Origin: Procambarus clarkii
Taxonomy: Eukaryota; Arthropoda; Malacostraca; Decapoda; Cambaridae
Direction of reading: 5' to 3'
Assembly (NCBI RefSeq): GCF_040958095.1
Contig: NC_091177.1
Span: 852,501 to 916,500 of the forward strand
DNA length: 64,000 nt
The translations under genes were made by a program, and so were the position numbers. Every line of letters starts with the position of its first letter. Position 1 is the first letter of the stretch. The notes under the pieces were generated by a model. It did no database searches. It was not told where the DNA came from and worked only from the letters and a program-made list of their open reading frames with translations. This document shows, piece by piece, positions 15,653 through 62,740 of the stretch.

Positions 15653-16382
15653 CACTTTTGCGTTCTTGGCTTGCACTCGCCAGACTACCCCAAGGTGGCC
15701 TGGACGTTTCTCGCAAGAGCGTGGCAACACTGAAATGTGTGTACTCTTTTCAGTTTTATCACCTCAGTTTTCGTTGTACGTCGTTCATTTTGGTACCAAA
15801 ATGTTTGCAATAGAATTCCCTACAGGAGTATATGAATATATGAATATAGAGTATAAGTATATAGTATATGAATATAGCTTTTGGATGGCACCCCGTCCAA
15901 AAACCCGGTGTGTCACCCGCACCAAACCCAGAAATGAGCCTAGCATTACCCATAAGTGTGCAAGAGCAATACAATGTGTATACTCTTTTCACTTTTTTCA
16001 TCTCAATTCTCGTGCTACGTCTTTCATTTTGGTATCAATTTGTTTGCAATAAAATTCCCTACAGGGATATTTGCATACAAGGTCCAAAAGCCCGGTGCGC
16101 CCCACCCACAGCAAAGACGAAAGTCGGCCAAGCGTTACTTGTGAGCGAGCACCCATTGGCATACCCGCAACACCTGCTCACAAATGTATTTACTTTTTTA
16201 AGGTTTCTCACCTCAGTTTGCAATAAAATGGGAAGATGTTGGCGCACATTTTAAAGAGAGTCCTATAAAGATCGGATAAAAACTTGAATTTTAACACATT
16301 TTAATTTTGGGTGTCACCTACGTCCCCAAGGAACATCCGCAGTTATTTGTGGACGTCATCTCCGTCCCTAGGAGCGAAAGTG
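15653..16382 (+). mobile_element. TTAA-flanked CACTTT element, copy 1 (730 bp)
   Basis: The ends are cacttttgcgttct and, on the right, the complement of cactttcgctcct. The right flank is TTAA and the left is ATAA, one base off. Inside are diverged units of about 240 bp, each with gtgt(at)actcttttca, then ttcattttggtaycaa (15785 and 16024), then gcaatararttccctacagg and a ccaaaa-cccggtg stretch. A distinct right-end domain (ggcgcacattttaaa to gtccctaggagcgaaag) is shared with copy 2. TTAA target sites point to the piggyBac superfamily. No transposase is encoded, so it is non-autonomous. Confidence 0.7.
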
Positions 16383-16386
16383 TTAA

Positions 16387-17264
16387 TAGTGATTTATATC
16401 TGTTGTGTGTTAGGTTATTGTTTGACCAGGGAGTGTTGAATAGTTTGATATGTGAACAGTTTCTCTCTGTGGTCGATTGTGGTACAGTATCTCTTCCACT
16501 GTGCTATTAATTCCTAGATAACAACATTTGGACTCAATGGAGCTCAGATTGCATGGGGCCTAGCATGTCTGTGTGGTAGTGATCATTGTCATCACTGACT
16601 TGCCTCTCAAATATAAGAGACTTGAGTTTGAACCCTGGACAGGGCGAAATACAGTACAGTAATTGGATACTGTTCCAGTAATATACAGTACAGTAATTGG
16701 ATACTGTTCCATCACTGTTCGCACCCATGTGCAAAGCAGTACTGTAATTGGGGACCTAGATGAAAAGCAATTGGCATATCATTTTCTAGGAAAACATGGT
16801 ATTGAATAATGTAATTAGCTGCAGTACCAGGCCCAAGCCCTGATTCCTAGTTTGAAATTGTTTTTCTTTAATATACTGTATTGTACTTTAATAAAATTTA
16901 AGTTATTACACTATGCTTTAGGGGTAAAGTTAGATAGGTTGGCATCCTTGGAGGAAATTTTTGATTTGTATTGGCTCTATTGAAATTTGGAATAGAGACT
17001 ATTTTACACATAGATAATTTATGTTAAATGTGGCAATGAACTAAGGCCGTATAACACACATCATGCTTCACCTGTACAACAAGGCAAACAGCCCAGTGTT
17101 GGTCACGATGGTACTGAAGAGAAGACATAACAGTCAGGATGGTGCTAAAGGCAGATGTACATTCATATTAATTGTGCTTTGGTACGGTCAGGATAGTACC
17201 AAAGACAGATGTATATGAACTATCAAGATACTGCAGGCGATGAGTCACAATAACATGGCTGAAG
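16387..17264. other. No gene recognised
   Basis: AT-rich. A short direct repeat (tacagtacagtaattggatactgttcca) occurs twice near 16645-16710, and the phrase ggatagtaccaaagacagatgta recurs in varied form near 17135-17210. No coding signal is seen. Confidence 0.5.
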
Positions 17265-17266
17265 TA

Positions 17267-17425
17267 TGTTGACCAGACCACACACTAGAAAGTGAAGGGA
17301 CGACGACATTTCGGTCCGTCCTGGACCATTCTCAAGTCAAGTCTCATTCACAATCGATTTGAGAATGATCCAGGACGGACCGAAAAGTCGTCGTCCCTTC
17401 ACTTTCTATTGTGGCCTGGTCAACA
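17267..17425. mobile_element. 159-bp hairpin MITE flanked by TA
   Basis: The arms (about 17267-17337 and 17358-17425) are near-perfect reverse complements, containing gaagggacgacgac and ggtccgtcctgga with their complements, around a 20-base loop. TA flanks both ends, suggesting a Tc1/mariner-type target site. It could fold into a stem of about 70 bp. Confidence 0.7.
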
Positions 17426-17448
17426 TATCAAGATGCTGTAGTTGATAG

Positions 17449-17640
17449 CTGGTTGATACCTGGTTGATGGGGTTCTGGGAGTTCTTCTACTCCCCAAGCC
17501 TGGCCCGAGGCCAGGCTTGACTTGTGAGAGTTTGGTCCACTAGGCTGTTGCTTGGAGCGGCCCGCAGGCCCACATATCCACCACAGCCCGGTTGGTCCGG
17601 CACTCCTTGGAGGAATAAATCTAGTTTCCTCTTGAAGATA
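17449..17640 (-). mobile_element. LINE 3' end (AAPSNSLVDQ family)
   Basis: The reverse strand gives the last residues of a LINE ORF2 (KQQPSGPNSHKSSL in one frame, with the diagnostic cggcccgcaggcccacata and gtttggtccactaggctg DNA words) and a terminal microsatellite of ggttgatacct units. The same end occurs at 28926-29190 and, attached to a long LINE, at about 63430-63640. Confidence 0.8.
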
Positions 17641-18533
17641 TAGTACCAAAGACATGCATATACATTACAAGACTATAAAAGGATAAATTCATGAATATAC
17701 AGTACTGTTCTGTATAAAGTTATACTGTATATATAATTTTTAAATTGTTGAGTATTGTAAATATTAAGATTTATATATTTACAGTACTGTAGAAACAACT
17801 ACAAATATGAGAATATATAAAAATTATGAATTGTATTATTAAACACAATTTATTGCACAAAACACCAATAGTATTTTATCATTGTATTAAATCTACTATA
17901 AAGCCACAAATTCAGCACAATATGAAGTCCAGAATGTTTAGAATATGCAAAGATGCATAAGTATACAGCCGTAAATCAAGCATTGACAGCTGTATACCTA
18001 TGTTAGTAAAAACATAAGTAAAAATTTTTTTAGTAAAAATCTAAAACATGTTAGTAAATGTCAGTAAAAAACAAAAACAAGAATGTAGTATGAGTAGGAG
18101 CCTGGCATACTGCTGAAGAATGTGATAGACCTTAGAGTTACTGTACCATAAATTATTTTAAACCCACGTAACATAAATTCATTTGTATATTTTGAAACAT
18201 AGTTTAAAAGTGTTTATGCATTAAACTTTTAATCAACATAATGCTGTACCGTGAAAATTACAGGCTGCTTATATTTGTAATTTACTTTCTTTGGATGTGT
18301 AAATAATATATAAAATTATTTTGATGCGGAGTGAAATAACAATAGCGTGGTCTAGTGAGTAATGCATGTGTTAGGTGAAGCAGGACTCAAGTTTGATTTC
18401 ATCAAACTACTCAAAAGATTTTCAAATTTGTTAAATTTTCAGCATTTGCCTTGTGTGCGTGTACTTTATAGTGAATAAACTAACATCTCTTGCATGTAAG
18501 AATGCTACTAACCATTGCTAATCCATTTCTCAG
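17641..18533. other. Presumed intron upstream of first visible exon
   Basis: Very AT-rich with no open frames of note. It ends in a pyrimidine-containing tract and acceptor catttctcag just before 18534. Any exon further upstream of the host gene is not recognisable in this window. Confidence 0.5.
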
Positions 18534-18769
18534 GTGTTGTTGGTGGTGGTGGTACTATTATGAGCATCAAGGTGGTATCAGGTTCTGGTCTGTTACAAAG
18601 TTCACCCCCAGGTCAACCATCACAGCAGCAGCAGCAACAGCAACAACAGCAACAGCAGCAACAGCAGCAAGGCCAGGGACAAGGGCAATCTCGGCCCCCA
18701 CGTTCCCGCACCAATGTGGCTCTTCAAGCAATTATGAAGAGAAACTCGGCCATGCAGGAAGCCAAACAG
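18534..18769 (+). CDS. Host gene internal exon A (polyQ, low-complexity protein)
   Basis: A catttctcag acceptor precedes 18534 and a CAG|GTAAAT donor follows 18769. The exon is 236 bp. It enters in phase 1 (the first two bases complete a Gly codon) and leaves in phase 0. It encodes about 78 residues: a VVGGGG start, a 16-Gln run, a GQGQGQSRPPRSR segment, then TNVALQAIMKRNSAMQEAKQ, which is more complex and probably helical. Splice phase matches exon B exactly. The composition suggests a disordered nuclear or RNP-granule protein, such as a transcription co-regulator or translation repressor, but I do not recognise the family. An upstream start codon is outside what I can see. Confidence 0.75.
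18623..18670 (+). repeat. CAG/CAA repeat encoding 16 glutamines
   Basis: Sixteen consecutive Gln codons mix CAG and CAA (pattern beginning cag x4, caa, cag, caa, caa). The CAA interruptions would limit slippage, which is common for selected polyQ tracts in coding exons. Confidence 0.95.
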
Positions 18770-19493
18770 GTAAATGCTTTTGTATAGTAGTTTCATGAGT
18801 AGTGATTGTTCCAAGGTATATCCCTTCTTTCCAATGAGTTCTTGAGAAATGTAATTAATATTATGTTAATTTAGATGATACCAAGAAACATAACTGAATA
18901 CTGAATCAGCATCCATGCTTTCTATATATAACAAGTGTGTAATAATATCTCATGTTTCCCATGGTTCCCTTTTCATGGAAGTCTGAAGCCACCACTATAT
19001 TATGAGAGGCTAGAACTATAGTAATATATTCATGGTATGCTGAAAACACCACAAGATCACCATGGCAGGCTAAAACTGCCACAATACCGTCATGGTAGTC
19101 TAGAACCACCACAGTATTATCATGGTAGGCTAGAACCACCACAATACTGCCATAGCAGTCTAGAACCACCATAACATAATGATAGGATAGAACCACTGCA
19201 GTATCATTCGGGTAGCCTAGAACTATCAAAGACTCATCACAGTAGATCAGCATCATCATACTGGCTAAACATCCATGACAATATTTCAGCTGTTTCATAG
19301 ACTAGGTGTAAAGTACAGTACACTGCATGAATTGCCTCAGACACCAAATAATGTCTTTTATTTCCTTCCAACAGAGTACCTCCAATGAGAACCCCACCTC
19401 CCCCCACACTGGCATTTCTTATGGACTGTTGCTCATCCATAACTCATTTTCTCAGATCTCTCTAAATTTTCAGTTTATCCCTTTACTATTTAA
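18770..19493. repeat. Intron sequence with degenerate ~36-bp tandem repeats
   Basis: About eight diverged units of the form catggtaggctagaaccaccac plus an aatact-type spacer lie at about 18965-19240. One strand is open across the array only because of the repeat. The rest of the interval is intron with no gene. Confidence 0.7.
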
Positions 19494-20584
19494 CACTTTC
19501 CCGTCCCCGGCATGCGCGCCGCAGTCTACTGCAATGTGTGCCAGGCATTTCATGTCAGTGCGTGGCCAGATTAAAATATGTGTACTCTTACCAGTTTTCT
19601 CACCTCAATTTTCGTATTATGCCATTCATTTTGGTATCAGTGTGTTCGCATTAGAATTACTTACAGGCGTATATGGATAAAGTCCAAAAGCCCGGTGTGC
19701 CACCCGCACCAAACCCAAAAATCAGCCGAGCGTTACCTTTTAGCGCACAAGAGCACTAAAATGTGTATACAGTACTCTTTTCAGTTTTCTCATCTCAATT
19801 CTCGTGCTATGTTATTCATTTTTATATCAATGTGTTCGCAATAAAATTCTCTATAGGGGTATATGCATATAAGGTCCAAAAGATTGGCACCCCCCAACCC
19901 CTCCATCCCCACTCCTGCAGCAAAGCCAAAAGTCAGCCAAGCGTTACTCGTGTGCGAGCACCCATTGACACACTCACAACACTCGCCCACAAATGTGTTT
20001 TCTCACATGAATTTTCATGTTACATTGTTCATTTTGGTATCAAATTGTTTGCAATAGAATTCTCTAAAGGGAATACAGGGTACATGCATATAAGGTAACA
20101 AAGCCTGGTATGCCACCTGCAGCATGTGCCCAGCTAGATGTGCATGAGTGTTACCTGTGAGCATTACCCATCAATTTTCATGTTACATCGTTCAATTTGG
20201 TATCAACTTGTTCACAATATATTTTTCTAAACGTATATATGTATATAAGACAAAAATAAACAGGGGCGCTACCCACAGCAAACTAGAAAGTCCGCCAAGC
20301 TTTACATATAAGCAAGCACCTATCCGCACACCAACACTAAATTGTGTACACTCTGTTCAGTTTTCTCACCTCAATTTTCAGGTTACGTCGTTTATTCTGG
20401 CATCAAATGGTTCGCAATCTATTGGTGCGCATTTTAAACTAGTCCCATAACAATCAGAAAACACAGATTTTTTAACAAATATTTTATTTTTGGACGTCAC
20501 GGCCCTCCTTGTCTCACATCTGCAGAGTTAATTGTGGATGTTGCAGATGTCCAGGGAGTGGGGGGGGGGGGGGGGGCAAAAGTG
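19494..20584 (+). mobile_element. TTAA-flanked CACTTT element, copy 2 (1,091 bp), in intron
   Basis: Perfect TTAA sits on both sides (19490-19493 and 20585-20588). The left end is cactttcccgtcc and the right end is the complement of cacttttgccc. Five diverged internal units have their ttcattttggtatca cores at 19625, 19815, 20028, 20191 and 20391, so spacing is 163-213 bp. The right terminal domain (ggtgcgcattttaaac onward) matches copy 1. There is no transposase. A run of about 17 G near 20560-20576 sits at the right end. It lies in the intron between exons A and B, in the sense orientation. Confidence 0.75.
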
Positions 20585-20588
20585 TTAA

Positions 20589-21339
20589 AAAGAGTTGCAA
20601 TACTGACAATACATATTTGTAACATTCATATTTCTAAAGTAAATAGAACTGTGCTTTCCAGACCAGCAGAAGAAAACCCAATTGCTTCGAGGGTAAAGGG
20701 CAGTAAATGGTTTTTGCTTAAGTTTATTCAAGAACTTAATTTATAATACAGTACAGTAAAAGAAAAAGGGGGTAATGAACAATTATTTTAATCAAATGGC
20801 TGAAATATATTTTGTCACTTAAAAATCAACTTAAGTGACTCACTTAATGAGTACTGCTACAGATGCATTGTAATACAAAGGTACTATGGAATATAGGAAG
20901 TAACAATGTAAACACTGTAATCAATTATGTGTAAATTGGTGCATACAATTAAAATGCAAGAACACAGCAGCACATACAGGAAGGCTGTAGTAGCTGTAAC
21001 TGAAAAAGAGACCACTAACAAGCAGTGTATACAACACACACATGGTATGCATAGCACTAACTTTAATGATAATGAGGTTCCTGAGAGATTATGACTATAG
21101 TGTACTAGAACAATCAATTACAGGACATTTTGGTTGGTAACAACAGTGATAGGGGTTTTTCTCAGAGCAATGTCCTCGGTTTAATATGCATATACAGTAA
21201 CAACTTTGTATTATATTTTAAATTCCCCAAAAATAATGAAAATGGCAAGTATTTTAGACTTTTGAGATTTGAAGCCTCGGAATGGGTCTGATATTACTGC
21301 AATTGGTTCAGCTTAATAGTTAATGTGTAAATGAGTTAC
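20589..21339. other. Intron, no gene recognised
   Basis: AT-rich sequence between two TTAA elements. Scattered stops, no repeats with clear edges. Confidence 0.5.
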
Positions 21340-21343
21340 TTAA

Positions 21344-22221
21344 CACTTTCGCGCTTAGGATTATCCATGAGTCGTCACCGTATTTTATGCGTCACCGCAT
21401 AACAGACGACTCCTGTAGTCCATCGAAAAAATATTTGTATAAAATCCATTTATTATCCGATCAACTTGGGAATAGTATACAAATGTTTGCCATGAAATTT
21501 ACGTTTTCTCTAATAGCCGAACAGCTTATAAAAGAAAACGGTGTGGCAGTGAATCATCGTGGTAAAACAATTGTATTATTGACACGACGAGTGTAATCGA
21601 CGTAGTTTTTATATATGTTGCCGGTCGAACGCATCCTTATGTGACCTTTAATACTTATGTTCTTATAGAACATTCTATTGCGAGCACATTGGTACAAAAA
21701 TGAAATACATACATCGACAAATAATGTCAGGACAGTGAATTGAATATACACTTTTCAAAGCGAGTTTCGCCGATATGCTGCCGCGGGTAACACTTCGGCC
21801 ACTTCCCACATTGTTTTGGGTGGGCTACGACATTAAATCTATATTTATATGCATATGTCCATGTAGAGAATTTTATTGCGATTCCAATGATACCACAATT
21901 AGCGATGTAGGACAACTGTAGGCTTCGCAACCATTAAGAGAGTGGAAACATTTTGTTGCTGTTTGGCGCTCTTGGCGAGTGATCTGAATAGTTTTTTATT
22001 TGGTGTTGATAGTCCTTATGCTTGGGCGGCATTTTATAGGTATGCTCTTATAGACAATTTCATTGTGAACACAGTGATACCAAATTTAAATACGTGCGCC
22101 TTCAATTATTGTCAGGACAGTAAAAAGAGTGTACACTTTTTCGGTCTTACCGCATAGGCGCGCGGAGCGCCGAAAGCATCTAGGGTATTATTTTTTTTTG
22201 AGCGCCGAGAGTGCGAAAGTG
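21344..22221 (-). mobile_element. TTAA-flanked CACTTT element, copy 3 (878 bp), abutting splice acceptor
   Basis: Perfect TTAA duplications lie at 21340-21343 and 22222-22225. The ends are cactttcgcgctta and the complement of cactttcgcactct. Internal units run on the reverse strand, with core complements near 21681, 21885 and 22070 (ggtatca/ttggtac words with gcaataaaat-type partners). The right part, including ggcgctcttggcgag and gcatctagggtatt, is the reverse complement of the left part of copy 4 at 61666-61935. Its right duplication ends 18 bp before the exon B boundary. Confidence 0.8.
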
Positions 22222-22243
22222 TTAATTGTTTTTACTTTTACAG

Positions 22244-23518
22244 GTAACTTTTAAGACTCCTTCACCAGCCATATCTCCAAATCCATCTGAAGCCTCCAGT
22301 GACAGTCATCGTAGTCAGCTCTCCACACCACCATTACTGCCTCCCACTACGCAGCGGGATACCTTGTCAAGTTCTCCCATGCCTCATCATCTTGGACAAA
22401 TATACCAGATGAGCACACCTCAGGGACAAGGAACATCATTTGGACGGCAGAATCAAAGTACAGAAAGTAATTTTCCAAATCAACAACATCAACAGTTTGG
22501 AGGACAACCTCCTTGGGGAGGAGTAACCGGAATGAGTGGAAATATCCCATCTCAGCATGGTATGGGGCGTCCTCTTCATCAGCAAAATCAAGCAATGAAT
22601 TCTGGACCAAACTTCAATATGCAGAGAAATGGCAATGGGCCATCTCCACAAACTGTTTTGCAACAACTACAATCATCCACACCTAATCAGTCAGACATAC
22701 TGACAGCAGGAATATTTAACAGACCACCTCTTGAGGGCTTCCATCAACTTGGTGGACCAGTTCCACCAAGACCAGGAGTAGATATGCCTAACAGAATGAG
22801 GGAGCCGGCTCCCAGAATATTGGAAATGATGGGAATGACACGTGCACCTCCTTCATTTGGACCAGTGGAAGGCTTAAATAATGCATGCAGGATGCACCCT
22901 CCAGGCACAGACGGCCAAGGACTAGATAGTTCTCCTCGCATGACTCAGGCACCATTCAGGCCACATCAGGGCCAGCAGGAAATGGAGACAATTACGACTC
23001 AGGCCAAAATGAATCCTGTATCACATCCACTGCTCTCGCCTGGAGCTATGAATGCCCATCTTTTTGGTATTGACGGAAGGCAGAATGTCAGTGGATCTAG
23101 TGGTCCTGGAGTATCGGGTGGTCCAAGAAATGTATTTGGGGAAAGTGATGTAGGACCACCACGAGGTCCTGGACTCTCACCACCCATGGGTATGGGCTGG
23201 GGTCCAGGGCATAATGAAAGCAAAAGCTACCACATGAGTCACCCTCCTCCTACTTTGGCGAATCTTCTGCAACAACATGCTCAAGTTGATATGAGGCTCA
23301 ACTTACCATTAGATCATGGATCAGATCAACTTACTTCTGGGTTAGCCAGGCTACCTGGAGGGCCCTCTATACACAACCCTGCTATGAACACTCGCAGCCC
23401 TCCTGGTGTTGGCCCACTTGGCACTGTTCCTCTGAGCATGCTCTCCATGCCTTCCACTCAACCGCCAGGTTCCATACCTCACAGTCAGCCACCCAGAGGA
23501 CAACCATTCATGCAAGAG
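22244..23518 (+). CDS. Host gene internal exon B (425 codons, Pro/Gly/Gln/Met-rich)
   Basis: The acceptor is tgtttttacttttacag before 22244 and the donor is GAG|GTTAGT after 23518. The exon is 1,275 bp, open throughout and phase 0 at both ends. It opens with VTFKTPSPAISPNPSEASSD, then a long Ser/Pro/Gln/Gly/Met-rich region with short more structured islands: TVLQQLQSS near residue 133, RILEMMGMTRAPPSFGPVEG near 192, and PPPTLANLLQQHAQVDMRLN near 341. These Leu/Met islands in a disordered background look like short docking motifs. The base composition and codon use are unlike the surrounding AT-rich intron. The family is not recognised: a transcriptional coactivator or an mRNP scaffold would both fit. 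It is the strongest host coding signal in the window. Confidence 0.88.
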
Positions 23519-24369
23519 GTTAGTGAAATTTTTATTTTGTTATCATCCATACCCATATCCCATGTATCAGTTCTGTTTCCTCTAGGTATCAGCCTGGAGG
23601 AAATAGGAGAGTAATATATGAAAAGAAGGATAAAGATACATAACACAAAAAGATAACCATCCATTCTACATTTCTTTTACAGTGAACAGCATCACATGGA
23701 ATTAGTTCCATTATACACCAGCAAAGTATTCACAACATCACTGCACTACTTCATATGGCCTGGTGTAAAGTGTTTTCCATGAGCTGTTTAAAATGTTAAA
23801 AAATCACTCTGTCTTTTAACTGATTGGTTCCACAAAGCTTTATTCCCAATTACATGTGTGCTGTTCACTCAAGTCTCTGCTCCCTCACGCACATACACCA
23901 TGGGCTACCCATCTTGCCATCTTTCTACTATCAAATTTATTTCCATATTATTTCTTCACCACTTTATGATCCATTCATTCAGTATAACAAAATCATAAAA
24001 AAAACTCCCTCTCTCTTTTTTTTCCTCCCTCCCTCCCTCCTTTCCCCCCCCCCTCCCCAAGCTTATAATTTACCACCTTTTATACTTCACATGTTTCCAT
24101 GACATTTTTGTGTCCTCTTCTATGTCCTAACACAAGTAAATGCTTCTCAGAGTGTCCATTTCTTTTACTCTATTTCTTATGTATGGCTCCAGCTGAAACC
24201 CAAAATCAAAATTTTAAAAGCATTAATATACTTTTATCCTGGATATTTTACACTTGCTGCTAGATAAATGATTTTCATAATTCTTAATCATAATCATTTT
24301 ATCTGGAGGGATTGAAGAGTGGCTTGCTGTAGCTAGGAGTATTGAGCACTCCATACACATCACATCAGC
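23519..24369. other. Start of the 34-kb intron, no gene recognised
   Basis: The donor gttagt at 23519 is followed by AT-rich DNA and a pyrimidine-rich stretch (about 24005-24060). Frames continuing past the donor stop within about 100 bp. Confidence 0.6.
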
Positions 24370-25700
24370 CTTATGAGTTTGTAATAACCTACTGGAGACT
24401 GAAGCCAGAACCTGGGCCCTCATAGAGGTGCAGGGAGCAGAGGGACTGATACAGTCACCTTCACCAAGGAAGCATCCAGAAAGGAAACAAAGCCAAACAG
24501 ACAACTGCAGGATTCACAAAGAAAAGAACAAAGCAACAAATGACTAAGCAAACAATCTACCCAGGAGTCGGTTCGATGCCCTCTGTAATTGCAGCTGATC
24601 ACCGACAGGTGGCAGCACACTGCAAGCTGCCGTATTCCCATGTCAACTTTCCTCAGTCTATTTATCTGATGTCCAAATGTATGGATTGCTTGTTGAGTTG
24701 TGAGCCTTCCAGGTCCCAACTGTTCCTAGATAAGTGTTGGTCATCCTTTGGACTGTACAGTGAGGGACCCATTTGGTTGTGTCCTTGCTTTGGTGTTAGC
24801 TTCATGTGTGTGTGTTTGCAAGCCTCACTTGTTGTGTGGCTTGCATAGATACAAGTGTCTTTTTCTGGTGGGCAGCTCAGCCTTAATTCATTTATCTCGG
24901 GTGATCCACAGTGTCATTAAGTCTAGCCAGCCTGCAGGGGTACCCTTAGGGTCCTTGATATTCACAAATTTGCACCTCTGACTGCAGTATTTTCCAACAT
25001 GTTTTACACTGATATCTGTGCTCTGGAAGTCTAACAGGGTCTAAGTGGCTCAATACCTGCTCAATGTTTCAAGTCCCCTTTGGGCTTGTGTTGCTTTGGG
25101 TCAAATTTCCTGTCCTGGTGTCTCCTCTTTGATGGTGTGAGTGTCGCTCTCCTCCCTGATAAGTCCCTGTTTTCTTTTACACCATGGTTAGTTACAGAGA
25201 ACCACCATTTGGCGCCTCCAGAAAACTGGCATTGAATTGTAATGAAACTCCTCTTTCTGGTTGGGCCTCAGTGGCTTCCTGGTGCTCCCTCCCCCCTTCC
25301 AACCAGGTGCATCGAATTGTTGTCCTGGACTTCAGACTTAGGAACGTTGACATGGGAAGTCGGCAGTTTCCAGTGGTGCTGCCACATGTCGGAGATTACT
25401 GCTCATCCTTCTAGATGTTTCCTTGGTGAGAATAACAGTATATTGCCTTCCCCCCCCCCCCATCCTATTCCCCTGCACCTCTGTGCAAGGGCCAGGTTCA
25501 GGCTCTGGTCTCCTGTAGGCTATTACAGACTCCTAGGGCTGATGCGACTCGAGTGTGGAACTATCTTAGTACAGCTAGGTACAGGAAGCCATCAAGACCC
25601 AATGAGAAAGAGGTGTTTCATTACATTCAACACTGGTTTTTGGCTCGGGAACAGTTGGCCATGCCTTTCTAAAGTCTTGTTTTCCACCAGATACCTGTAT
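24370..25700 (+). mobile_element. Old DIRS-like retroelement fragment
   Basis: Phrases of the DIRS-like family at 45-57 kb recur in decayed form: gccagaacctgggccct near 24402 and a tcagagggact neighbourhood; a recombinase C-terminal echo near 24895-24980 (VIHSVIKSSQPAGVPLGSL against VIHRVIRYSQPVVYPRAHD in the better copy); and a terminal-like aattgtaatgaaactcc with cctcagtggcttcctgg near 25233-25280. Many stops and frameshifts. Edges are uncertain. Confidence 0.5.
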
Positions 25701-29980: not shown

Positions 29981-29984
29981 TTAA

Positions 29985-39489: not shown

Positions 39490-39805
39490 TGAAGCCTCAC
39501 TTGTTGAGGGCATTTGGGTTGCCTGTGAGGCCTCACTTGTTGAAGGCGCTTGCTTGCACCTCACTTGTTGAAGCGCTTGCATGCCCTCACTTGTTGAAGG
39601 TGCTTGGCTTGCCTGTGACGCCTCACTTGTTAAAGGCGCTTGCTTGCGCCTCACTTGTTGAAAGCGCTTGGCTTGCCTGTGGCGCGTCACTTGTTGAAAG
39701 CGCTTGGCTTGCCTGTAATGCCTCACTTGTTGAAGGAGCTTGGCTTGCCTGTGGTGCCTCACTTGTTGAAGGCGCTTGGCTGCCTGTGACGCCTCACTGG
39801 TTGAA
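39490..39805. repeat. ~36-bp tandem array inside the pogo-like element
   Basis: Nine units with cctcacttgttgaaggcgct, followed or not by tggcttgcctgtga, give long (36 bp) and short (about 27 bp) forms. The array is derived from sequence just downstream of the transposase start (gcctcactggttga at 39790). One reverse frame reads RQAKRFQQV repeats. Confidence 0.85.
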
Positions 39806-49840: not shown

Positions 49841-49889
49841 TCCCAAGGTGAGTATTCCTCGTGGCCCCTTGATGGCCGGCCCAGCTTTG

Positions 49890-50150: not shown

Positions 50151-50184
<34 letters not shown>

Positions 50185-53042: not shown

Positions 53043-53044
53043 AA

Positions 53045-54400
53045 ACTGTCCTTTCTGGAGGAAGGGGGGAGCCCCTTGTGGCTACCTAAAGCTACTATAC
53101 CGATACAGTGCCATCAGTCACGGAGGCCACTCAGAGAAGCTTCAGGAAGTAATGGCTCTATGAAAATTTGCATTTAAATTTAGTCAGGTCATTTACATTC
53201 ATTATTCATGTAAATTTATTCATGAGGGCCAAGGAAAGGCACCCAGAAAGTCAGCAAAACAAACCAGACCACTGTTTGGTTAGAAAACCAGACTGCAGCC
53301 TCCAAACAGCCAAAAGAACCCCCCCCCCCCACAATGTAAATAAATGATTGAAAATTCATGAAATAACTCGAGCTAGTAGTCCCCACCTCTCCTTACGTTT
53401 GCTGGGAGGAGGGAGGCAGACCGGGTTGTATTTATACTTTGTGCGAATTCAATTTTTTTTCGTGTTCTGAGCCACCAGGTGATTGATGTTCATGCATTCT
53501 GCCTCCACCTGGCTGCCTGTTGGATCAGTGATACCTTCGACCCAGCGTCATGTGGAACGTGTTCCCTGCACATTGCTCTTCTTACCTGCTCTCTTATTAA
53601 TGTTCAAGGGTATCTGGCAGCAACTGCTTTGCTATTCTGTGTTGCAGTGGTCTAGGTTCTGTGTCCAATTGGTTGCCCCGGATTTGCCCCACTTAATGTT
53701 AGGGGTCTCGAATTTGGTGGTGTTGGTTGCCTCAACCTTAGTTCCATCCACCCCTCCACCTTTCCCAGCGGGTGTCATAGACCCTTCTTTTTCCCTCCTG
53801 CTTCTAGCCCTGAAGTGTCTGTGGGTTTTGGGGTCAGGACTACCTGATTGGCTTGGGCAGCTCTGGGGTTTGCCTCTTCCAACTTGGGCATGGAGGCAGT
53901 TGAGCCTCTATACTCATTATTGCATATCCATCCCACCTATCATTTGTGTTAAACTATGAGGAGAATGCATTCCAGAGAGACATTATTTTTGTTGGGGTCT
54001 GCTTTATGCATCCTCTGGCTCATCCAATATCATCTTTGTGCAGTAAAATACATGCCTCTATGACTCAGTATTCCATTATGCCTCAGTCAGAATCAGTATT
54101 TGTTAATCACTGTACTGTTCCATGGTTTCATAAACTACAATCTGGAATGCCTAGCTTCTGTGAAGTGGCCAAGTTGATTCTACCATAGGTGTATCCTCAT
54201 GTCAATGAGCTGTGCAAGTTTATCACTTTAAAATCATATTTCTCAGTGATGTCTTCCGCTGACATCAGAGCTTGGAAGTTTTGGAAGTCTAGGCTATCCA
54301 CACATTTACATACTGGTGCTCTCCCAAGATTACTTTCCTGTGTTTGCCAGTGTGTGGCCTCAGAGAGGCTTTATTTCTAGATAAAAATGTTAAATTCTGG
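53045..54400 (+). mobile_element. DIRS-like copy: Gag joined to recombinase end
   Basis: A left terminus relic (tttctggaggaagggggga near 53053) leads to a Gag-like segment (53500-53860: LAACWISDTFDPASC across frames, LLALKCLWVLGSG). An unrelated-looking stretch follows, then a recombinase C-terminus (54190-54300: VYPHVNELCKF, then SSADIRAWKFWKSRLSTH). RNase H and RT are absent. The HxxR box is again NELC, lacking Arg. Confidence 0.65.
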
Positions 54401-55311
54401 TGAGATTTTGGGGTCAGAATGTGTGGACAACCTGATGCATATATCCCCCAACAGCTTGTGGAACACTTTGTAGCACGGATGAACTTTCTTTGTACTATTT
54501 GTTTTAACTTCCACATTCAAAATTTAATTATGGAGCATCTGAGTAGAATAGCACAGAAATCAGTTGCACAAATATGAATCTTGATGTAACAGAAACCTTA
54601 AAAATATGGAATATTTTTCCAAGCAGAATAGTAATTAAGTTCCTGAATGAGGACCAGAACACATGAATGTGTGTCAGTCCAGTGAATTAAAGTGGTGATT
54701 GTCACAGAGGCACTGTTACATGTGATGAAGGTTTATCCTGTAGGCAGCCGTTTCCAGTCAGCCAAGAGTTCTGTTCTACCAACATCAGTTCAAGCTACAC
54801 TGTTTATGGTGTTAGCAGGAGGACTTGGAGGAGAGAGAAGAGAAGGGCAAAGAGAAGGAGCATTTTATACACTTGTTTGTAACATGAAATAAGTACTGGA
54901 GAGTGGAATAACTTCTTCACTCACACTAAAGAGATCAGATTATTACTAAAGTTAAAATTTGTGGAATCACTTGTATTACTAGTGAATGTTTAACCACAGT
55001 CAACATCATTCTTAATTTACAGTTATATTAGCAAAGGCTACCAAGATGAGCAAACCTGTAGGGAGAAGAACTTGAAAAGTAAAGATAGAAAGAAGGCTGA
55101 AAAAAGTTAAGTAATGTATTCCAAAGAAAAACTTAATAAACTTTGTGGACACCAGTATAACTAGAGAAAAAAAAGGTGGAAGTTATAATGTTGAAATACT
55201 AAAGCAGTGGTTCTGCAAAGAACTTTGTTTAGCTTATCATTTAGAATAAAAGGTACACACATTTGTATTATTCTCTACCGTACCATATAATTATACATAA
55301 AAACAACCCTT
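54401..55311. other. Intron, no gene recognised
   Basis: AT-rich with short open stretches and no motifs. Confidence 0.5.
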
Positions 55312-57530
55312 TTCTGGGGGGAACCTCATCGGCTCCCCAGAGCTATCCAGGCTGAATGGATATGTATAGCGTTCTGGTATCAGTCAATGTGCTTGGAGTT
55401 CTTGCCTACCGGGAACCACGAACCAGAACCTGGCCCCCTCAGAAGACGAACGAGGAGCAATGGCCTATAGAAACCCTCCCTGTGGTTGGGAGCATTCTGT
55501 GTCTGCCATTGACCAGGACAGGCACCTAGAAAGGTAGGGGCCCCAAAACAAACCCCTATTCTTGTAAAACTATTGCTACCGAAAGCCGAACAAATGGACA
55601 GAACTCCCCAAACGGAAATTAGCAAACAAGCATGGCGTCATCATGTTGCCGCGCCGCCGTCTGCGCAACCCCCCCTTTTCCCAGGAGGGGGAAGAGAAAG
55701 CCCCAGACCCCTCTTGCCGGTTACCCAACACTAGTTCTTGGCTGATGGGTGTCTGGTGTGGTCACGTGCCTCTGGCTTCAGAATTCTTTGCTCTCAGTCC
55801 TGTGTCTGGTGGCATGGGCTCTCTCTCCAGGGGGAGTGTGAGCCAGGAGTGATATTCCAAGGTACTCGGGCTGCATGTGCCTAGGACTACCTTCCCTAGG
55901 TGCCCAGTAAGTACTGCCCTTGGTGCTTGGGGCTACCGTCCACAAGTCACCTTGGAGTCTGCCTCCGTGGTGCCTTTTACTGCTCGGTACATGGCCGCCC
56001 TTGAGGTCTGCTGAGGTTTTATTGCCCTTGAGTCCCTGGATAGGAGGTAGTTGTCATCAATGGTAGGGGCACAGAGTACTGCACAGCTTGTCTTCTCACA
56101 TTCTAGCGGCCAGCTCTGTTCCGCTCGGGTACGTTGTCCTCTTGGGGGGTTTTTCTTTTGTTTTTGTTTTCTGCCTGGTGGGAGGGTCTCCCTGTTACTT
56201 CCTGTTCGGGTTCTGAGTTTCATTTTGTTGGTGGCGTCTCCCGCTAGGCCCCCCGTGAGTGGACACGTCCCGGGGGTTCAGCTTTTAGAGGTTTGTTCGT
56301 TAGACTTGGGCGCCGATTCGCAGTACCCTGCCTGGGCTTCCCTTAGCGTGTCACCAAGGATAAGGGCCCCGGGAAACCCCGCGGGGGCTACGTGGTCCAA
56401 TGGATGTAATCCCTGAGCCCCCCCTCCCCCCTCGCGTCTTGCGAGATTGCTCAGGGTGACACTCACTGGTTCTGCCTCGACCATGCTGCCTGTTGGGTCA
56501 TGGATTCCTTTGACCCAGAGTCTTGCGACGTTTGTTGTCTGTTCGTACTCCAGTTCACCCAGGCCTCTGATACTGATACAAGGGTGCAGGCGGCAGCCGC
56601 GTTGCATGCTCGGTTTAGGTTGCTGCAACGTGCTCGGTTGATTGCTGCCCCGGATGCCCCGAGCCTGCCCCATTTTTGTTATAGGGACCCGGACTTGGGG
56701 GTAGGGTCGCTTCGGCTCTGGTTCGCCCCTCCTAGTCCTTCCCCTTCGGTTATACATTCAGTACCCCCCCTTGCTTTTGGCTCCGAAACGTCTGAGGATT
56801 TCAATGTCGGGGCAGGGTTTAGTTGATGTCAAGACTCAGGCGGTCTCAGGGGAGTCCCCTTCTGGGGTTTCGGCGGTGGCATTCGAGCCTGGTCCTCCTG
56901 CCAAAGCTTCTGGGTCTGACCAGTGGGGGCCTCCCCTTCATTCTAACTTTTTCGGCCGCTCCCACTTCTTCTTTAGGGGCGGGGAAAAACGCCATTTTCT
57001 GGGTGAGTCCCGGAGGCTCCTCGGCATCCCTCCCTCCCTCCAGTCGGCAGTGTTTTTTTCGTGTGTTTTGACATCCAGCCTAAGAACTAGTGTTGGGTAG
57101 TCGGTGCTAAAACTAAGCCTAAGAATTAGTGGGGGGGGGGGTGCGGGTGCGTAGATGGTGGCGCAGCAACATGACATCATGCACGTCTAATTTTCATTTG
57201 GGGCGTTCTGTCCACTTGTTCAGTTTTCAGTAGCAATAGTTTTACCAGAATGGGGGTTTGTTTTGGGGTGCCTACCTTTCTGGGTGCCTGTTCTGGTCGA
57301 TGGCAGACATAGAATGCTCCCAACCACAGGGGGTGGGGTTTCTATAGGCCATTGCTCCTTGTGCCTCTTCTGAGGGGGCCAGGTTCTGGCTCGTGGTCCC
57401 CGGTAGGCAAGAACTCCAAGCACAGTGACTGATGCCCGAAAGCTATACATATCTATTTAGCCTGAATAGCTCCGGGGAGCCTCCGGGACTCACCCAGAAA
57501 ATGGCGTTTCATTATATTCAACACTGGTTT
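55312..57530 (+). mobile_element. Non-autonomous DIRS-like element next to exon C
   Basis: The left terminal repeat (55312-55640, ttttctggggggaacctcat onward) and right one (57180-57525) are reverse complements (gttgggagcattctgtgtct, aatggacagaactcccc, caatgtgcttggagttcttg and partners). The only coding remnant is Gag-like ORF1 (56450-56820). At about 56978-57020 aaacgccattttctgggtga is the reverse complement of the right terminus, the expected internal complementary region. About 2.2 kb, lacking RT, RNase H and recombinase. It ends about 50 bp before the exon C acceptor. Confidence 0.8.
56450..56826 (+). pseudogene. DIRS-like ORF1 (Gag-like) in non-autonomous copy
   Basis: Frames give FCLDHAACWVMDSFDPESC, then ALHARFRLLQRARLIAAPDA and LPHFCYRDPDLGVGSLR. 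Order and residues match the copy at 47.1 kb, so the Gag-like region is the best-kept part of the family here. A frame change near 56500 and later shifts break it. Confidence 0.65.
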
Positions 57531-57580
57531 TTTGTTTTTCTCTTTTTTTTTGTACTAGTTTTTTTATTACTTGTTTATAG

Positions 57581-57724
57581 GGTGGGGAAGGTGATGGACC
57601 ATCAGGCAACACATACTCCCTCTTCAGTCCCATGAGTGGAGGTAGCATGGGTATGGGTGCTGGTCCCAGCCGCTCGGTCCCTCATCCTCTATACCCAAGC
57701 AACTCGCAGCCAAGTGGACAGCAG
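57581..57724 (+). CDS. Host gene internal exon C (48 codons)
   Basis: A strong pyrimidine tract and acceptor (tattacttgtttatag) precede 57581. A consensus donor CAG|GTAAGT follows 57724. The exon is 144 bp, open, phase 0 at both ends, so it joins exon B in frame. It encodes GGEGDGPSGNTYSLFSPMSG, then GSMGMGAGPSRSVPHPLYPS and NSQPSGQQ: Gly/Ser/Pro/Met-rich like exon B, which is the main reason to place both in one protein. Further exons must lie beyond the window. Additional small exons could hide in the 34-kb intron. Confidence 0.75.
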
Positions 57725-58052
57725 GTAAGTGTAGTTTTATAACTATCAAAGATAACTTATTTTTATTTAGAAAAGATTAGTTTTAGATTTTACTAATTTA
57801 AGAAATTTTTTCGTAATTTTTAAAATACGAAAAATATTGTAAAATTTAGGTAATTTTTTCGATGTGTATAGGTATTTATAAGATTAAGTTTAGTTCTTCC
57901 ACTATGTCACACGGCTTGGGATGATCTTACTAATTATCCACAATCTGCATATCACGCTTGGAGAAGTTTTAAAGTACCACTTAAAATTTAAAAGTCCTGT
58001 GTGGTAAAAAAGACAACAGCTGCCATCTTTAAAGAAAATTCTAAATAAGCTG

Positions 58053-58056
<4 letters not shown>
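57725..58056. other. Intron after exon C, no gene recognised
   Basis: AT-rich sequence from the gtaagt donor to the poly-T tail of a SINE. Confidence 0.6.
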
Positions 58057-58083
<27 letters not shown>

Positions 58084-58352
58084 GAGATATATACAAGAGT
58101 TGTTACATTCTCGTACAGCCACTAGTACGCGTAGCGTTTCGGGCAAGTCCTTAATCCTATGGTCCCTGGAATACGATCCCCTGCCGCGAAGAATCGTTTT
58201 TTCATCCAAGTACACATTTTACTGTTGCGTTAAACAGAGGCTACAGTTAAGGAATTGCGCCCAGTAAATCCTCCCCGGCCAGGATACGAACCCATGACAT
58301 AGCGCTCGCGGAACGCCAGGCGAGTGTCTTACCACTACACCACGGACCCTCC
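58057..58352 (-). mobile_element. tRNA-derived SINE with poly-A tail (second family)
   Basis: On the reverse strand a tRNA-like head (A-box-like tggtgtagtggtaagacac, B-box gggttcgtatcc) leads into a body (atttactgggcgcaattcct, catagga, cttgcccgaaacgct) and a tail of about 25 A, seen here as poly-T at 58057-58083. Distinct from the other SINEs in the window. It lies between exon C and the piggyBac relic. Confidence 0.85.
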
Positions 58353-58374
58353 ACCTCTCAACACTGCTCTGTGG

Positions 58375-58560
58375 CTCATTCCAAATAATCACTAACTGAT
58401 AAAGAAATTCAGAAGAACTTGATGGAAACTCATAAGGAAAGTATCATTGATGATTATGATATTGATAAGGATTATGCTCAGGGCTCAAATAAAAGTGATC
58501 AAATAGATAATGATATAGATGCACATACTGTATAACTATCCCCAGGGGTGAGGTCTATAC
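58375..58560 (+). pseudogene. piggyBac transposase relic, acidic N-terminal part
   Basis: One frame reads DKEIQKNLMETHKESIIDDY, then DIDKDYAQGSNKSDQIDNDI and a stop near 58533. Asp/Glu/Ser-rich N-termini are usual for piggyBac transposases. The assignment depends on the clear middle and C-terminal pieces at 59584-59905 and 63650-64000 on the same strand. Confidence 0.5.
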
Positions 58561-58715
58561 CATCACCACTGCCGGGTGATGGTATAGACCTCACCTCCAC
58601 TTGACACCACCACTGCCACCTCGAGACTGGGATGTGAGTCTGTGCAGCGTCTGTTCCCGGAATTCTATTCCTGGAAGTTGTAAATATGTGGAAGGTGTAG
58701 TGGTGTATGAACTGT

Positions 58716-58998
58716 TACCAGGTGGCTCCTGGGCTCCTGACAGCTGGGTGGACAGCGCTTCGGATTCGTAGTCCTGAGGTCCCGGGTTCGATCCCCGGTA
58801 GAGGCAGAGACAAATGGGCAAAATGTTTCTTTCACCCTGATGCCCCTGTTACCTAACAGTAAATAGGTACCTGGGAGTTAGTCAGCTGCTATGGGCTGCT
58901 TCCTGGGGGTGTGTAACAAAAAGGAGGCCTGGTCGAGGACCGGGCCGCGGGGATGCTATGCCCCGAAATCATCTCAAGATAACCTCAAGATAACTTCA
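58716..58998 (+). mobile_element. tRNA-derived SINE
   Basis: The head has ggtggacagcgcttcggatt and B-box gggttcgatcc near 58787; the body has ggcaaaatgtttctttcacc, ttacctaacagtaaa and gcctggtcgaggaccggg. It ends in aatcatctcaagataacctc. Together with the opposite SINE at 59176-59432 it forms an inverted pair about 180 bp apart. Confidence 0.85.
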
Positions 58999-59175
58999 AG
59001 GTGACGTTCTGTTGCATCAGCTGCTCACCCCTCCAAACACCAGTGTGTGATGTCACATGGGGAAATTGAGGGAAGACTGCACTCATCTTCAATTGTTATG
59101 CCCTCATCTTCCAGTGTTCATGCCCACAGTATTTATCGTAAGAGGGTTTCATCTCCCAGCCAATTTAGTTTTGTT

Positions 59176-59432
59176 GGTGTAGGTTATCTTGAGATGATTT
59201 TGGAGCTTAGCGTTCCCGCGGCCTGGTCCCCGACCAGGCTGCCTTTTTGTTACACCCCCCCAGGAAACAGCTCGTAACAGCTGTCTAACTACCAGGTATC
59301 CATTTACTGCTATGTAACAGGGGCATCAGGGTGAAAGAAACTACCCATTTGTTTCCGCCTCCACCGGGGATCAAACCTGGAACCTCAGGACTATTAATCC
59401 GAAGTGCTGTCCACTCAGCTGTCAGGCCCCTG
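59176..59432 (-). mobile_element. tRNA-derived SINE, reverse strand
   Basis: Reverse complement of the same family as 58716-58998 (ggttatcttgagatgatttt at its 3' end, ggggatcaaacctgg as its mutated B-box, ctgtccactcagctgtcagg at its head). Mutations in the B-box suggest an older copy. Confidence 0.85.
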
Positions 59433-59574
59433 ACAGTAGGATACATGGCCGTGATATTGGTGGTGCCTCCTCCAGAACAGCAGGTGTACTCGTGTGGGGT
59501 GATTTGTTCCATAAATCCATACATTTGACAATACTGTACAGATGTAGGGGGTTAGAGATGTTTTTGCATATTCT

Positions 59575-59910
59575 GGTGAGGACATGAATGAAATGGAGTA
59601 TTTTAAGGCATACTTCAGTGAGCCACTTACCGAACATATTGTTCAGGAAATAAACAGATATGTGGCCAAACTTATTGGAACCGAGGGCATATTACCACAA
59701 TCACGATTGCAACATTGGAAGAATAACATTGTAGCTGAACTGTATATATTTTTTGCCCCTCAATATAATGATTAAATAGAAAAACACCTCATCCAGGATT
59801 ATTGGAACAAAGATTCAATTGTTCTGTCACCTGTTTTTTGGAAAATACATGTCTCTCGACAGGTTTCAGTTACTTATCAGGTATATTCAATTTTAAAATA
59901 GTGAAAACTG
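59575..59910 (+). pseudogene. piggyBac transposase relic, middle part
   Basis: It encodes EYFKAYFSEPLTEHIVQEIN, then RYVAKLIG, SRLQHWKNNIVAELYIFF, a stop at about 59773, then HLIQDYWNKDSIVLSPVFW and, after a frame change, DRFQLLIRYIQF with a stop. The order YF...E.I..E.N.Y, then W......E.Y.FFA, then QDYW, then DRFQLL is the classic N-terminal domain of piggyBac (DDE_Tnp_1_7) transposases. The first catalytic Asp region should follow, but the sequence is cut by a LINE. A PGBD-like cut-and-paste enzyme with TTAA target preference is implied. Confidence 0.8.
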
Positions 59911-60663
59911 AAAGACAGATGTATTCAATGAACAGAATTGAAAGTACTGTACAAAGAGTTCTACACACCTGGTTAGAATTGAATAAATTCAATTGTATTC
60001 AATAAATTCAATTTTAATAATAAAAGGATAGACTGGGAGAAAATAAACAGGGAACTTACAAACATTCAATGGGAAAATGTTATAAGAAATAAAAATCCTA
60101 CACAAGGAATAGAAAAACTGACTTCTGAAGCATATGAAGTCTGTCTGAAACATGTTTCTTTGAGTAAAGCCAGAAAGAGGTCAAATGTAGAAAGAGAACG
60201 CAGACGACATTACAAAAGAAGGAAGAAATTAACGGAAATGCTTAAGCAGACACGACTCTCCATACAAAGAAGAAATAATTTAAACAGGGAGATTGAAGAA
60301 ATCGAACAGAGACTGAAGCATTCCTATCAGACTGAAGAAAGGCAACTAGAACAGAAAGCAATTCAAAAAATAAAGAAAAACACAAAATATTTCTTCACAT
60401 ATGCAAAGTCAAAAGCGAAAACCACTGCCAGTATTGGACCTATTCGTATTAGTGAAGGTTCATACACTGAGGATGACAAAGAAATTAGTGAAATCCTAAA
60501 AAAGCAGTATGAGGACATGTTTAGCACTCCGATACACAGCATGAAAGTGGAAGATTCGGACAATTTCTTTATGAATGATATCCAAACACCTGTAAATATA
60601 ACTGATATCAACACAAGCGTAGCAGATTTTGAAAGAGAAATTGACAATATATATGCCCATGCC

Positions 60664-60936
60664 CAGGGGAGCCGGTCAGTCGAGCGGACAGCACACTGGA
60701 CTTGTGATCCTGTGGTCCTGGGTTCGATCCTGTGGTCCTGGGTTCGATCCCAGGCGCCGGCGAGAAACAATGGGCAAAGTTTCTTTCACCCTATGCCCCT
60801 GTTACCTAGCAGTGAAATAGGTACCTGGGTGTTAGTCAGCTGTCACGGGCTGCTTCCTGGGGGAGGAGGCCTGGTCAAAGACCAGGCCGCGGGGACACTA
60901 AAGCCCCGAAATCATCTCAAGATAACCTCAAGATAT
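60664..60936 (+). mobile_element. tRNA-derived SINE with duplicated B-box, inside LINE
   Basis: Same family as 12355-12604 (ggagccggtcagtcgagcgg head, gcctggtcaaagaccaggcc body, aatcatctcaagataacctc end). A 20-bp segment gatcctgtggtcctgggttc is present twice in tandem, so there are two B-box-like gggttcgatcc sites. Flanks tatgcccatgcccag and tatgcactcagcccc look like a diverged target duplication. It interrupts the LINE between FEREIDN and SAPGPDS. Confidence 0.85.
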
Positions 60937-61665
60937 GCACTCAGCCCCGGGTCCAGACTCATGGAATTCAATATTTATAAAGAAATGCAAAGTGCCAGTA
61001 GCACATGCACTCAGTATAGTGTGGAGGAAGAATTTGGACACAGGGGAGATACCAGATGTGCTTAAAGCAGCAGACATTACCCCTCTACACAAGGGTGGTA
61101 GCAAAGCATTGGCAAAGAATTATAGACCAGTTGCACTAACGTCCCACATAATAAAAGTATTTGAGAGAGTGATCAGGAGTCAGGTCACTAGATTCATGGA
61201 AACCAATGACCTCCACAATACAGGCCAACATGGATTTAGAGCAGGAAGATCATGCCTCTCACAGCTTCTTGACCACTATGACAAAATCACTGAGGCATTA
61301 GAAGAAAAACATGATGCAGATGTCGTATACACAGATTTTGCAAAGGCATTCGACAAATGTGACCATGGAGTGATTGCACACAAAATGAGGTCAATGGGTA
61401 TAACTGGTAAAGTAGGACGCTGGATACTCAATTTCCTGTCGAACAGAACACAAAGAGTAACAGTCAATCAAGTAAAAATGTCCAAGCGCAGTTAAAAGCT
61501 CTGTACCTCTAGGTACAGTCCTTGCACCACTGCTGTTCCTTATTCTCATATCAGATATAGACAAAAATACAAGTCACAGCTTCGTGTCATCCTTTGCAGA
61601 TGATACAAAATCATCATGAAAATTACCTCTGCTGAAGACATTGATAAACTAGAAACAGATATTAA

Positions 61666-62740
61666 CACTTTTGCGCTCTCGGCGCTCAAAAAAAAACAAT
61701 ACCCCAGATGCTTTCGGCACTTCGCGCGCCTACGCGGTAAGACCGAAAAGTGTACACTCTTTTGACTGTCCTGACAATAATTGAAGGCGCACGTATTTAG
61801 ATTTGGTATCACTGTGTTCGCAATGAAATTGTCTATAAGAGCATACCTATAAAATGCCGCCCAAGCATAAGGAGTATCAACACCAAATAAAAAACTATGC
61901 AGATCACTCGCCGAGAGCGCCAAACAGCAACAAAATGTTTCCACTCTCTTAATGGTTGCGAAGCCTACAGTTGTCCTACATCGCTAATTTTGGTATCATT
62001 GGAATCGCAATAAAATTCTCTACACGGACATATGCATATGAATGTTTAATGTAGGTAATTGCCCACCCGCAAGAGTGTGTGAAGTGGAGAGTAGTTAGCC
62101 GCGAGCGCACTGACGAAAACACAGGGGGGAAATCATGCTTGGAAAGTTTATACGTTTCCTGACCCTACTTTTCTATGTACGTATTTCTTTTTTATACCAA
62201 TGTGTTCGCAATAAAATTTTCTATAAGATGAACTGTATAACATTTGTACAAAGCATGTGTAAGAGAAGCGCCAAATATAGAACCACGTCGCTCAGTATGC
62301 GTTCGCGGCAGAAACGAACGCATTGTTTTCGTTCGTTTGATGTTTGTCATGTTTATACTTGTTGAAACATTTTATAATTTGTCTGACAGTGATCGCAGTA
62401 AAATTCCCTACACAGACATATACATAACACATACAAATATTTCCCACGTGTTGGATATATCAACGGCTAAAGGGAACCCACTGCCACACGCTCGCCACAC
62501 CCCCAAACATACTTTGTGTATTTTTTTTTTTACTCATAGAAGTTTATGTGATATAATATTCATTCTGGTACCAAAACATTCGCAAATAAATTCCCTACAA
62601 AACAAAAGTATCCCCATCCATTTCGGTTAAAAAATGGAATTTATAGAAATATTTTTTCGATGGACGAGAAAACTCGGCTGTTATGCGGAATCGTAAGAGA
62701 AAACGGCGACGAGTTATCTCTAATCTAAAGCGCGAAAGTG
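61666..62740 (+). mobile_element. TTAA-flanked CACTTT element, copy 4 (1,075 bp), inside LINE RT
   Basis: Perfect TTAA lies at 61662-61665 and 62741-62744. The left end is cacttttgcgctctc and the right end is the complement of cactttcgcgcttta. Five internal unit cores (tttggtatca then ttcgcaataaaatt-like) lie at about 61802, 61987, 62190, 62384 and 62566, spacing 182-203 bp. The left part matches copy 3 in reverse complement. Removing it with one TTAA restores the LINE frame LETDINKVFDW. No transposase. Confidence 0.88.

Follow-up and report, generated by a model that had tools for sequence, protein, structure and literature searches.

Array-bearing TTAA elements of the crayfish Procambarus clarkii as probable non-autonomous members of a piggyBac-superfamily transposon group

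In Pokey, a piggyBac element of Daphnia, a noncoding arm contains a ~200-bp repeat in 2–5 copies, and miniature inverted-repeat transposable elements (MITEs) derive from Pokey by deletion (PMC3849761). In piggyBat of Myotis lucifugus, the transposase binds three repeated left-end sites, the innermost of which restrains transposition (PMC11707139), and in the transpososome, a tetramer of asymmetric build, only the left end is bound by the zinc-finger domains (PMC13405395). The CMITE elements of Acropora are piggyBac-tied TTAA MITEs with an internal region better kept between families than the region of the terminal inverted repeats (TIRs) (PMC2872659), and in Tetris, a non-autonomous DNA transposon of Drosophila virilis, the internal tandem repeats are ~220 bp long (PMC4079207). 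Here, we describe four elements with internal ~190-bp units in a stretch of 64,000 nucleotides of the Procambarus clarkii genome (NCBI RefSeq assembly GCF_040958095.1, contig NC_091177.1, positions 852,501 to 916,500), hereafter the window. They are in all probability non-autonomous members (738–1,099 bp, 2–5 units) of a piggyBac-superfamily group of cut-and-paste transposons; this degree of confidence applies to the whole explanation, including the role of the unit array, while the piggyBac identity and the origin by deletion taken by themselves are close to certain.

Copy 1 (15649–16386, plus strand) is a family C-like element of 738 bp including the TTAA, with two units (cores at 15784 and 16023), ATAA at the left flank, and TTAA at the right flank. 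Copy 2 (19490–20588, plus strand) is also C-like; it is 1,099 bp long and has five units (cores at 19625, 19815, 20028, 20191, and 20391). Copy 3 (21340–22225, 886 bp, three units) belongs to family D and lies inverted on the minus strand, opposite to the other three copies, which the first-pass annotation of this DNA had not mentioned. Copy 4 (61662–62744, plus strand, 1,083 bp) is a MITE of family A with five units (cores at 61797, 61984, 62185, 62372, and 62559). The first-pass annotation had reported the same four copies, and they are real; its coordinates correspond to these borders minus the target-site duplication (TSD). The unit counts it gave (2, 5, 3, and 5 in copies 1–4) and its spacing agree with the core positions, the distances between cores being 239 bp in copy 1, 190/213/163/200 bp in copy 2, 187/198 bp in copy 3, and 187/201/187/187 bp in copy 4. 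All units lie on a single strand within each of the four copies. The right-end domains that it described as common to copies 1 and 2 and to copies 3 and 4 were recovered by alignment as well (384 columns with 65% identity, reaching nearly to the right ends, and 163 columns with 73% identity, respectively).

The sequence TTAACACTTT is found exactly at seven of the eight copy termini and nowhere else in the window. The chance expectation is 0.37 matches, and seven matches were reached in 0 of 100 shuffles. At the eighth terminus (copy 1, left), ATAA stands in place of TTAA. The inverted ends proposed at first, CACTTTYGCGCT, hold in part: they are exact at three of the four ends of copies 3 and 4, with one mismatch at the fourth, and looser elsewhere (one and two mismatches at the ends of copy 1, two at the right end of copy 2, and more than two at its left end). 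The 12-mer CACTTTYGCGCT alone, with up to two mismatches, is a weak marker, with 13 window matches against 6.03 expected and 1 of 100 shuffles reaching 13.

In longer elements of the same group (3.3–3.6 kb), TTAA flanks the CACTTTCGCGCT tips, three to five diverged direct repeats of ~187 bp form the left arm, and there is a right arm. These elements carry a transposase gene on the strand opposite to the array, with its 3′ end facing the array arm. The L010 element of 3,565 bp has the same tips and a five-unit arm. Its transposase frame, which lies on the opposite strand, encodes 662 amino acids (aa) from the first Met and matches the Pfam domain DDE_Tnp_1_7 (E-value 1.1e-80). Among solved structures, this transposase is nearest to piggyBat (8.2e-93); it also matches piggyBac (5.2e-23). 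The B-type element L073, with three units and a damaged right end, has an open frame of 790 aa from stop to stop that matches DDE_Tnp_1_7 (7.2e-76) and piggyBat (3.1e-88). In the B-type element L009 (3,305 bp), the transposase is split over several frames, and three of the five pieces tested match DDE_Tnp_1_7. The predicted fold of the relative P0002 (pLDDT, the predicted local distance difference test score, 75) also has piggyBat as its best structural match. The zinc-finger end is gone from the L010 frame; the C-terminal, cysteine-rich zinc-finger domain PF13842 was scored, against a cut-off of 24 bits, at 25.7 in the crayfish relative P0008, 20.4 in P0002, and 19.9 in L073, and its cysteines are nearly invariant in an alignment of 38 rows. 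A search of the genome with the L010 protein gave at least 74 scored matches, a lower bound obtained from the 67 of 10,494 candidates scored; 27 of these rows extend from residue 1 to residue 643 or beyond, and 14 of the 27 have no internal stop. The search for protein relatives of the transposase returned 373, and the nine best among the 120 matches listed are from Procambarus clarkii.

In the same search, an uncharacterised protein of the lamprey Petromyzon marinus (P0017) was found to share 51% identity with the crayfish transposase over 67% of the latter. Among the matches listed, it is closer than those named as shrimp or crab proteins, which could reflect horizontal transfer or uneven sampling.

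Kolobok is another superfamily with a TTAA target. The TTAA at both flanks of copies 2–4 (ATAA/TTAA in copy 1) would by itself fit Kolobok and piggyBac equally. The transposase frames, which match DDE_Tnp_1_7 in L010 and L073 and resemble the piggyBat and piggyBac structures, speak against Kolobok; we rejected this identity on these matches, and its probability is next to nothing.

The short elements of family A, copy 4 among them, were shown to be internal deletions that retain the array arm and the right arm and have lost the transposase. The family A consensus corresponds to bases 1–970 joined to bases 3428–3565 of the L010 element, and the same junction is present in L016, L023, and L044. 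Other junctions relative to L010 are 1653/3419 (L011, L014, L015, and L040), 1622/3388 (L013), 1820/3369 (L034), 1609/3353 (L035, L045, and L046), and 2013/3406 (L012), so that six different transposase-removing junctions occur among 13 family A-type loci. L013 and L014 also lack bases 926–1322, including unit 5; L035 begins at base 340 in the stretch examined, and L045 and L046 match the right side only to base 3536. Copy 4 diverges by 1.0% from the consensus of eight family A copies. Its left arm with the array (61662–62603, plus strand) corresponds to bases 1–970 of L010 with 94.9% identity over 972 columns, and its right arm (62607–62744, plus strand) corresponds to bases 3428–3565 by way of the family A consensus and three family A copies. 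Copy 4 is inserted, with TTAA duplication, into the reverse-transcriptase frame of a long interspersed nuclear element (LINE)-type sequence (61601–63216, plus strand), which it splits. With a single TTAA at the junction of its flanks, the reading frame stays open over ~20 codons before and ~157 codons after the site; farther upstream, this LINE is degenerate. Internal deletion of the transposase gene gave the elements of the family A plan, which were presumably multiplied by transposase supplied in trans, given their shared tips, TTAA flanks, and many near-identical copies.

The assembly searched for the ends comprises 4,027,284,227 bp in 2,308 contigs. The 16-bp end TTAACACTTTYGCGCT, with up to two mismatches, gave 5,383 + 5,417 = 10,800 matches, against 581 + 573 = 1,154 for the reversed control. 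The ends are common to copies throughout the genome, in support of the first-pass annotation, which had suggested a check with the ends plus TTAA. One hundred exact places were listed, all on contigs C1 and C2, picked without regard to units, and all were examined. This sample of exact ends is biased to young families and tells little of old copies, and the TTAA is part of the search pattern, so the flanks of the sampled ends are no independent test of the target. Array-bearing elements account for 99 of the 100 ends: 56 are of the left type, and an inward unit lies 86–101 bp inside them; the other 43 are right ends, with units pointing the other way. The remaining place is a family B right tip of 34 bp that stands alone, neither a unit nor a transposase being present in 4.8 kb. 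No sampled element has units on both strands. The element table from which strand and tip distance were taken was used for these two properties only, since it holds L015 twice, repeats an end of L041 as L049, and pairs L031, L033, L042, and L043 with inner loose ends.

Families A (~1,084 bp, five units) and B (~1,069 bp, four units) dominate the sample; 19 A copies, including copy 4, and 16 B copies were aligned. Pairwise identity is 97.5–99.0% among eight A copies and 97.3–99.1% among six B copies, and change within families is uneven (81 substitutions and 16 indels in the eight A copies, 73 and 2 in the six B copies). Family D consists of copy 3, L031, L032, L033, and L043, which have three units and are 84–86% identical to the A left arm. 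The C-like elements are copies 1 and 2, L042, and L047, with 2, 5, 7, and 7 units, respectively. L036 measures 499 bp and has one unit. Families A and B show the properties of MITEs: they are noncoding and have TIRs, TSDs, high copy numbers, and uniform sizes near 1,084 and 1,069 bp, and derivation from an autonomous element was shown for family A by its deletion origin. Their size exceeds the <500 bp usual for MITEs (PMC2872659). In the C-like L047, a palindromic folded-back stretch of unit sequence between two units was read by eye at 1360–1470. In L037 (1–296), a family B copy directly adjoins what is left of a second B copy, so clustering or nesting of insertions is possible.

The array is an inherited subterminal arm on the 3′ side of the transposase and not cargo, since the same array is present in the transposase-bearing long members, of which the short family A elements are internal deletions. 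The first-pass annotation had seen a mobile element with a satellite-like array as its cargo. One mobile family with a TTAA target, ends shared genome-wide, and internal ~190-bp units was indeed found, and the cargo part of this claim is not supported, the same array forming the transposase 3′-side arm. The possibility, also raised there, that the units simply belong to a known long element containing them comes close to what was observed: the long element was found, but a published description of it was not.

Compared position by position, units 1–4 of families A and B are 69%, 74%, 65%, and 63% identical, against 40–58% among the first four A units and 41–58% among the B units. Unit n of A is thus closer to unit n of B than to its own neighbours, and the unit tree, in which the bootstrap had not settled, resolves only part of this pattern. 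It joins unit 4 to unit 4 (99/97) and unit 3 to unit 3 (91/85), and groups units 1 with 3 (100/100) and 2 with 4 (93/98). B_u1 falls outside the other unit 1 and unit 3 rows (91/88), A_u5 has a long branch, and apart from these groups, the family C units are not resolved. Our reading is that a dimer was duplicated long ago, that its order has mostly been kept in A, B, and D, and that C underwent an amplification of its own. The identity of A to B is 81% in the unit cores (140/172), 68% in the spacers (335/496), 51% in the right arm (77/151), and 50% in the interior of the left tip (29/58), so that the array is the best-kept noncoding part, the tip excepted; the difference between cores and spacers gave a Fisher p of 4e-4. 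The spacing 187/200–201/187 is common to A and B. A constraint on unit spacing is not claimed here, as family C departs from it and within-family change is uneven. Protein-coding units were rejected as well, the A–B substitutions being even over codon positions (41/45/42), and a search with L010 only gave no Rfam match up to an E-value of 0.1.

Pokey is the nearest published plan found. Like the crayfish elements, Pokey and its mPok MITEs are crustacean piggyBac elements with a TTAA target. In both groups, ~200-bp repeats occupy a noncoding arm, the autonomous elements form two divergent families, and MITEs arose by deletion. However, the Pokey repeats lie 5′ of the transposase, whereas the crayfish repeats lie 3′. 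Insertion in 28S genes is a further mark of Pokey. The Pokey repeats derive from the ribosomal DNA spacer, differ little from one another (mean divergence 5.3%), and are shuffled between families; the crayfish repeats are far diverged (A units 40–58% identical) and largely position-stable between families. The mPok MITEs share the ends only, whereas the crayfish MITEs keep the array. piggyBat has the nearest solved transposase, asymmetric ends, and repeated sites on one end only (PMC11707139, PMC13405395), and its tip, CACTT as read from an oligonucleotide, is like the crayfish CACT tip. Its sites recur every 44 bp within ~120 bp, in contrast to a period of ~187–200 bp over ~500–1,400 bp in the crayfish, and the crayfish units showed neither a piggyBat-like motif nor a palindrome. 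The CMITE elements (PMC2872659) are ~100 bp long, have an internal region of obscure origin, and lack an internal unit array. Tetris (PMC4079207) is a foldback element with its repeats inside the TIRs. The plan, which the first-pass annotation called not standard for a MITE, has a precedent in Pokey (PMC3849761). A published description was not known to that annotation, and in the PMC articles searched, no description of the family, plan, or long element in Procambarus was seen, although a Repbase or Dfam entry may exist; the word piggyBac is absent from the main text of PMC13130569 and PMC10454600.

The first-pass annotation had further proposed that the element could seed satellites, and had suggested a test of whether arrays expand past the TTAA borders. 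The unit length, near the nucleosome repeat, would suit this idea, as would the varying unit number in family C (2, 5, 7, and 7), with its own amplified units, and Tetris is a precedent, its repeats being reported to have grown into satellite arrays. Nevertheless, the array is present in transposase-bearing members, and the units of A, B, and D are alike by position. A unit profile with E-values up to 1e-3 found no unit in the window beyond the four elements. In the genome, triplets of the exact core CAATARAATTC at 166–195 bp number 15 + 14, below the reversed control of 38 + 19; these matches overlap at most twice, which gives a maximum of four exact-core units in a row in 4.03 Gb. Long homogeneous tandem arrays outside the elements were thus not seen genome-wide with exact cores, a search that would miss inexact arrays or satellites collapsed in the assembly. 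The seeding of satellites is not supported by these data, and satellite-seeding MITE cargo is a very improbable explanation. A first, looser triplet pattern was swamped by minisatellites (20,669 + 25,658 matches against 52,956 + 60,527 in the control) and was not used. One of the several unrelated arrays that it matched is a 44-bp minisatellite with GGTATCATTGT at G000:C1:18923059-18924562.

As for what the array does, we favour its action as an extended left end with multiple sites, to which transposase or a host factor would bind, because both sequence and predicted fold place the crayfish transposase nearest to piggyBat. The bound array would promote or restrain end pairing, like the repeated subterminal sites of piggyBat. 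By this analogy, a docking or regulatory role has a little less than an even chance. The analogy concerns function only, as the units have no significant palindrome, tip-like motif, or coding signal.

A number of findings weigh against the explanation. The CACT tip departs from the CC[C/T]T usual for piggyBac TIRs (PMC2872659); we do not take this as excluding piggyBac, since CC[C/T]T is general and not universal and piggyBat also starts with CACT. The B MITE matches bases 1–575, 1400–1444, and 3117–3305 of L009, and ~270 bp of it, including unit 4, have no counterpart there; a four-unit parent was not seen, and two B-type long elements carry three units. None of the elements examined was a transposase-bearing parent of family C or D. 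Other findings weigh against the docking role in particular. The contrast between cores and spacers is not significant when set against within-family change (p 0.38), and the spacing is not strict in family C (163–264 bp). In the unit core, a palindrome is not significant (24 of 100 permutations as good), and the tip motif is not above shuffled tips (109/200; second test 232/300). Its recurrence in the left arm at offset 92 is weak (4/200 shuffles) and was not borne out by the 232/300 test; in the right arm, 152 of 200 shuffles were as good. Elements with one or two units exist (L036 and copy 1), so a long array is not required.

Passive carriage is a serious rival for the role of the array, although a doubtful one on the whole. 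On this view, the array would go back to an early duplication within the 3′ arm; it would persist since deletions happen to remove the gene, and recombination between elements would keep it similar among families. The within-family test, the lack of a palindrome or tip-like motif in the units, and a unit number ranging from 1 to 7 all fit this. Two findings speak against it: 99 of the 100 sampled ends come from array-bearing elements, and cores are better conserved than spacers between A and B. Control of transcription is an unlikely candidate. Inward poly(A) signals, for example, would stop transcripts that come in from the left flank, which would restrict antisense RNA directed at the transposase. 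Over the 1,230 bp to the left of the stop codon of the L010 transposase, the inward strand has AATAAA four times and the other strand not once. However, this motif is not exactly kept, the units reading AATAAA, AATGAA, AATAGA, AGTAAA, and AAATAA.

Some other features of the window can be noted. Copy 3 ends 18 bp before an apparent 3′ splice site, TTTTTACTTTTACAG, recognised by eye (22226–22243), at the start of the frame 22226–23614, whose protein has no Pfam match; the copy 3 border may lie within splicing signals. Minisatellites unrelated to the elements are located at 8236–8590 (30-bp period, 11.8 copies, 98% matches) and 39490–39805 (36-bp period), and a long run of X residues occurs in the translated frames within 8195–9451, pointing to a gap or withheld stretch of the window.

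The group described here accounts for ~9,600 end matches above control in the 4-Gb crayfish genome, and it ties a repeat group to transposase genes, many of them open. Its natural series of 1, 2, 3, 4, 5, and 7 units suits tests of long subterminal arrays. It is possible, though less likely than not, that a kilobase-scale left end evolved here, with 3–7 diverged docking units at about the nucleosome period being read as one multivalent end by transposase or a host factor. If true, this end, whose units largely hold the same order from family to family and persist in the mobile derivatives, would have several times the length of the repeated-site end of piggyBat, and retention of the array would be what made the MITEs successful.

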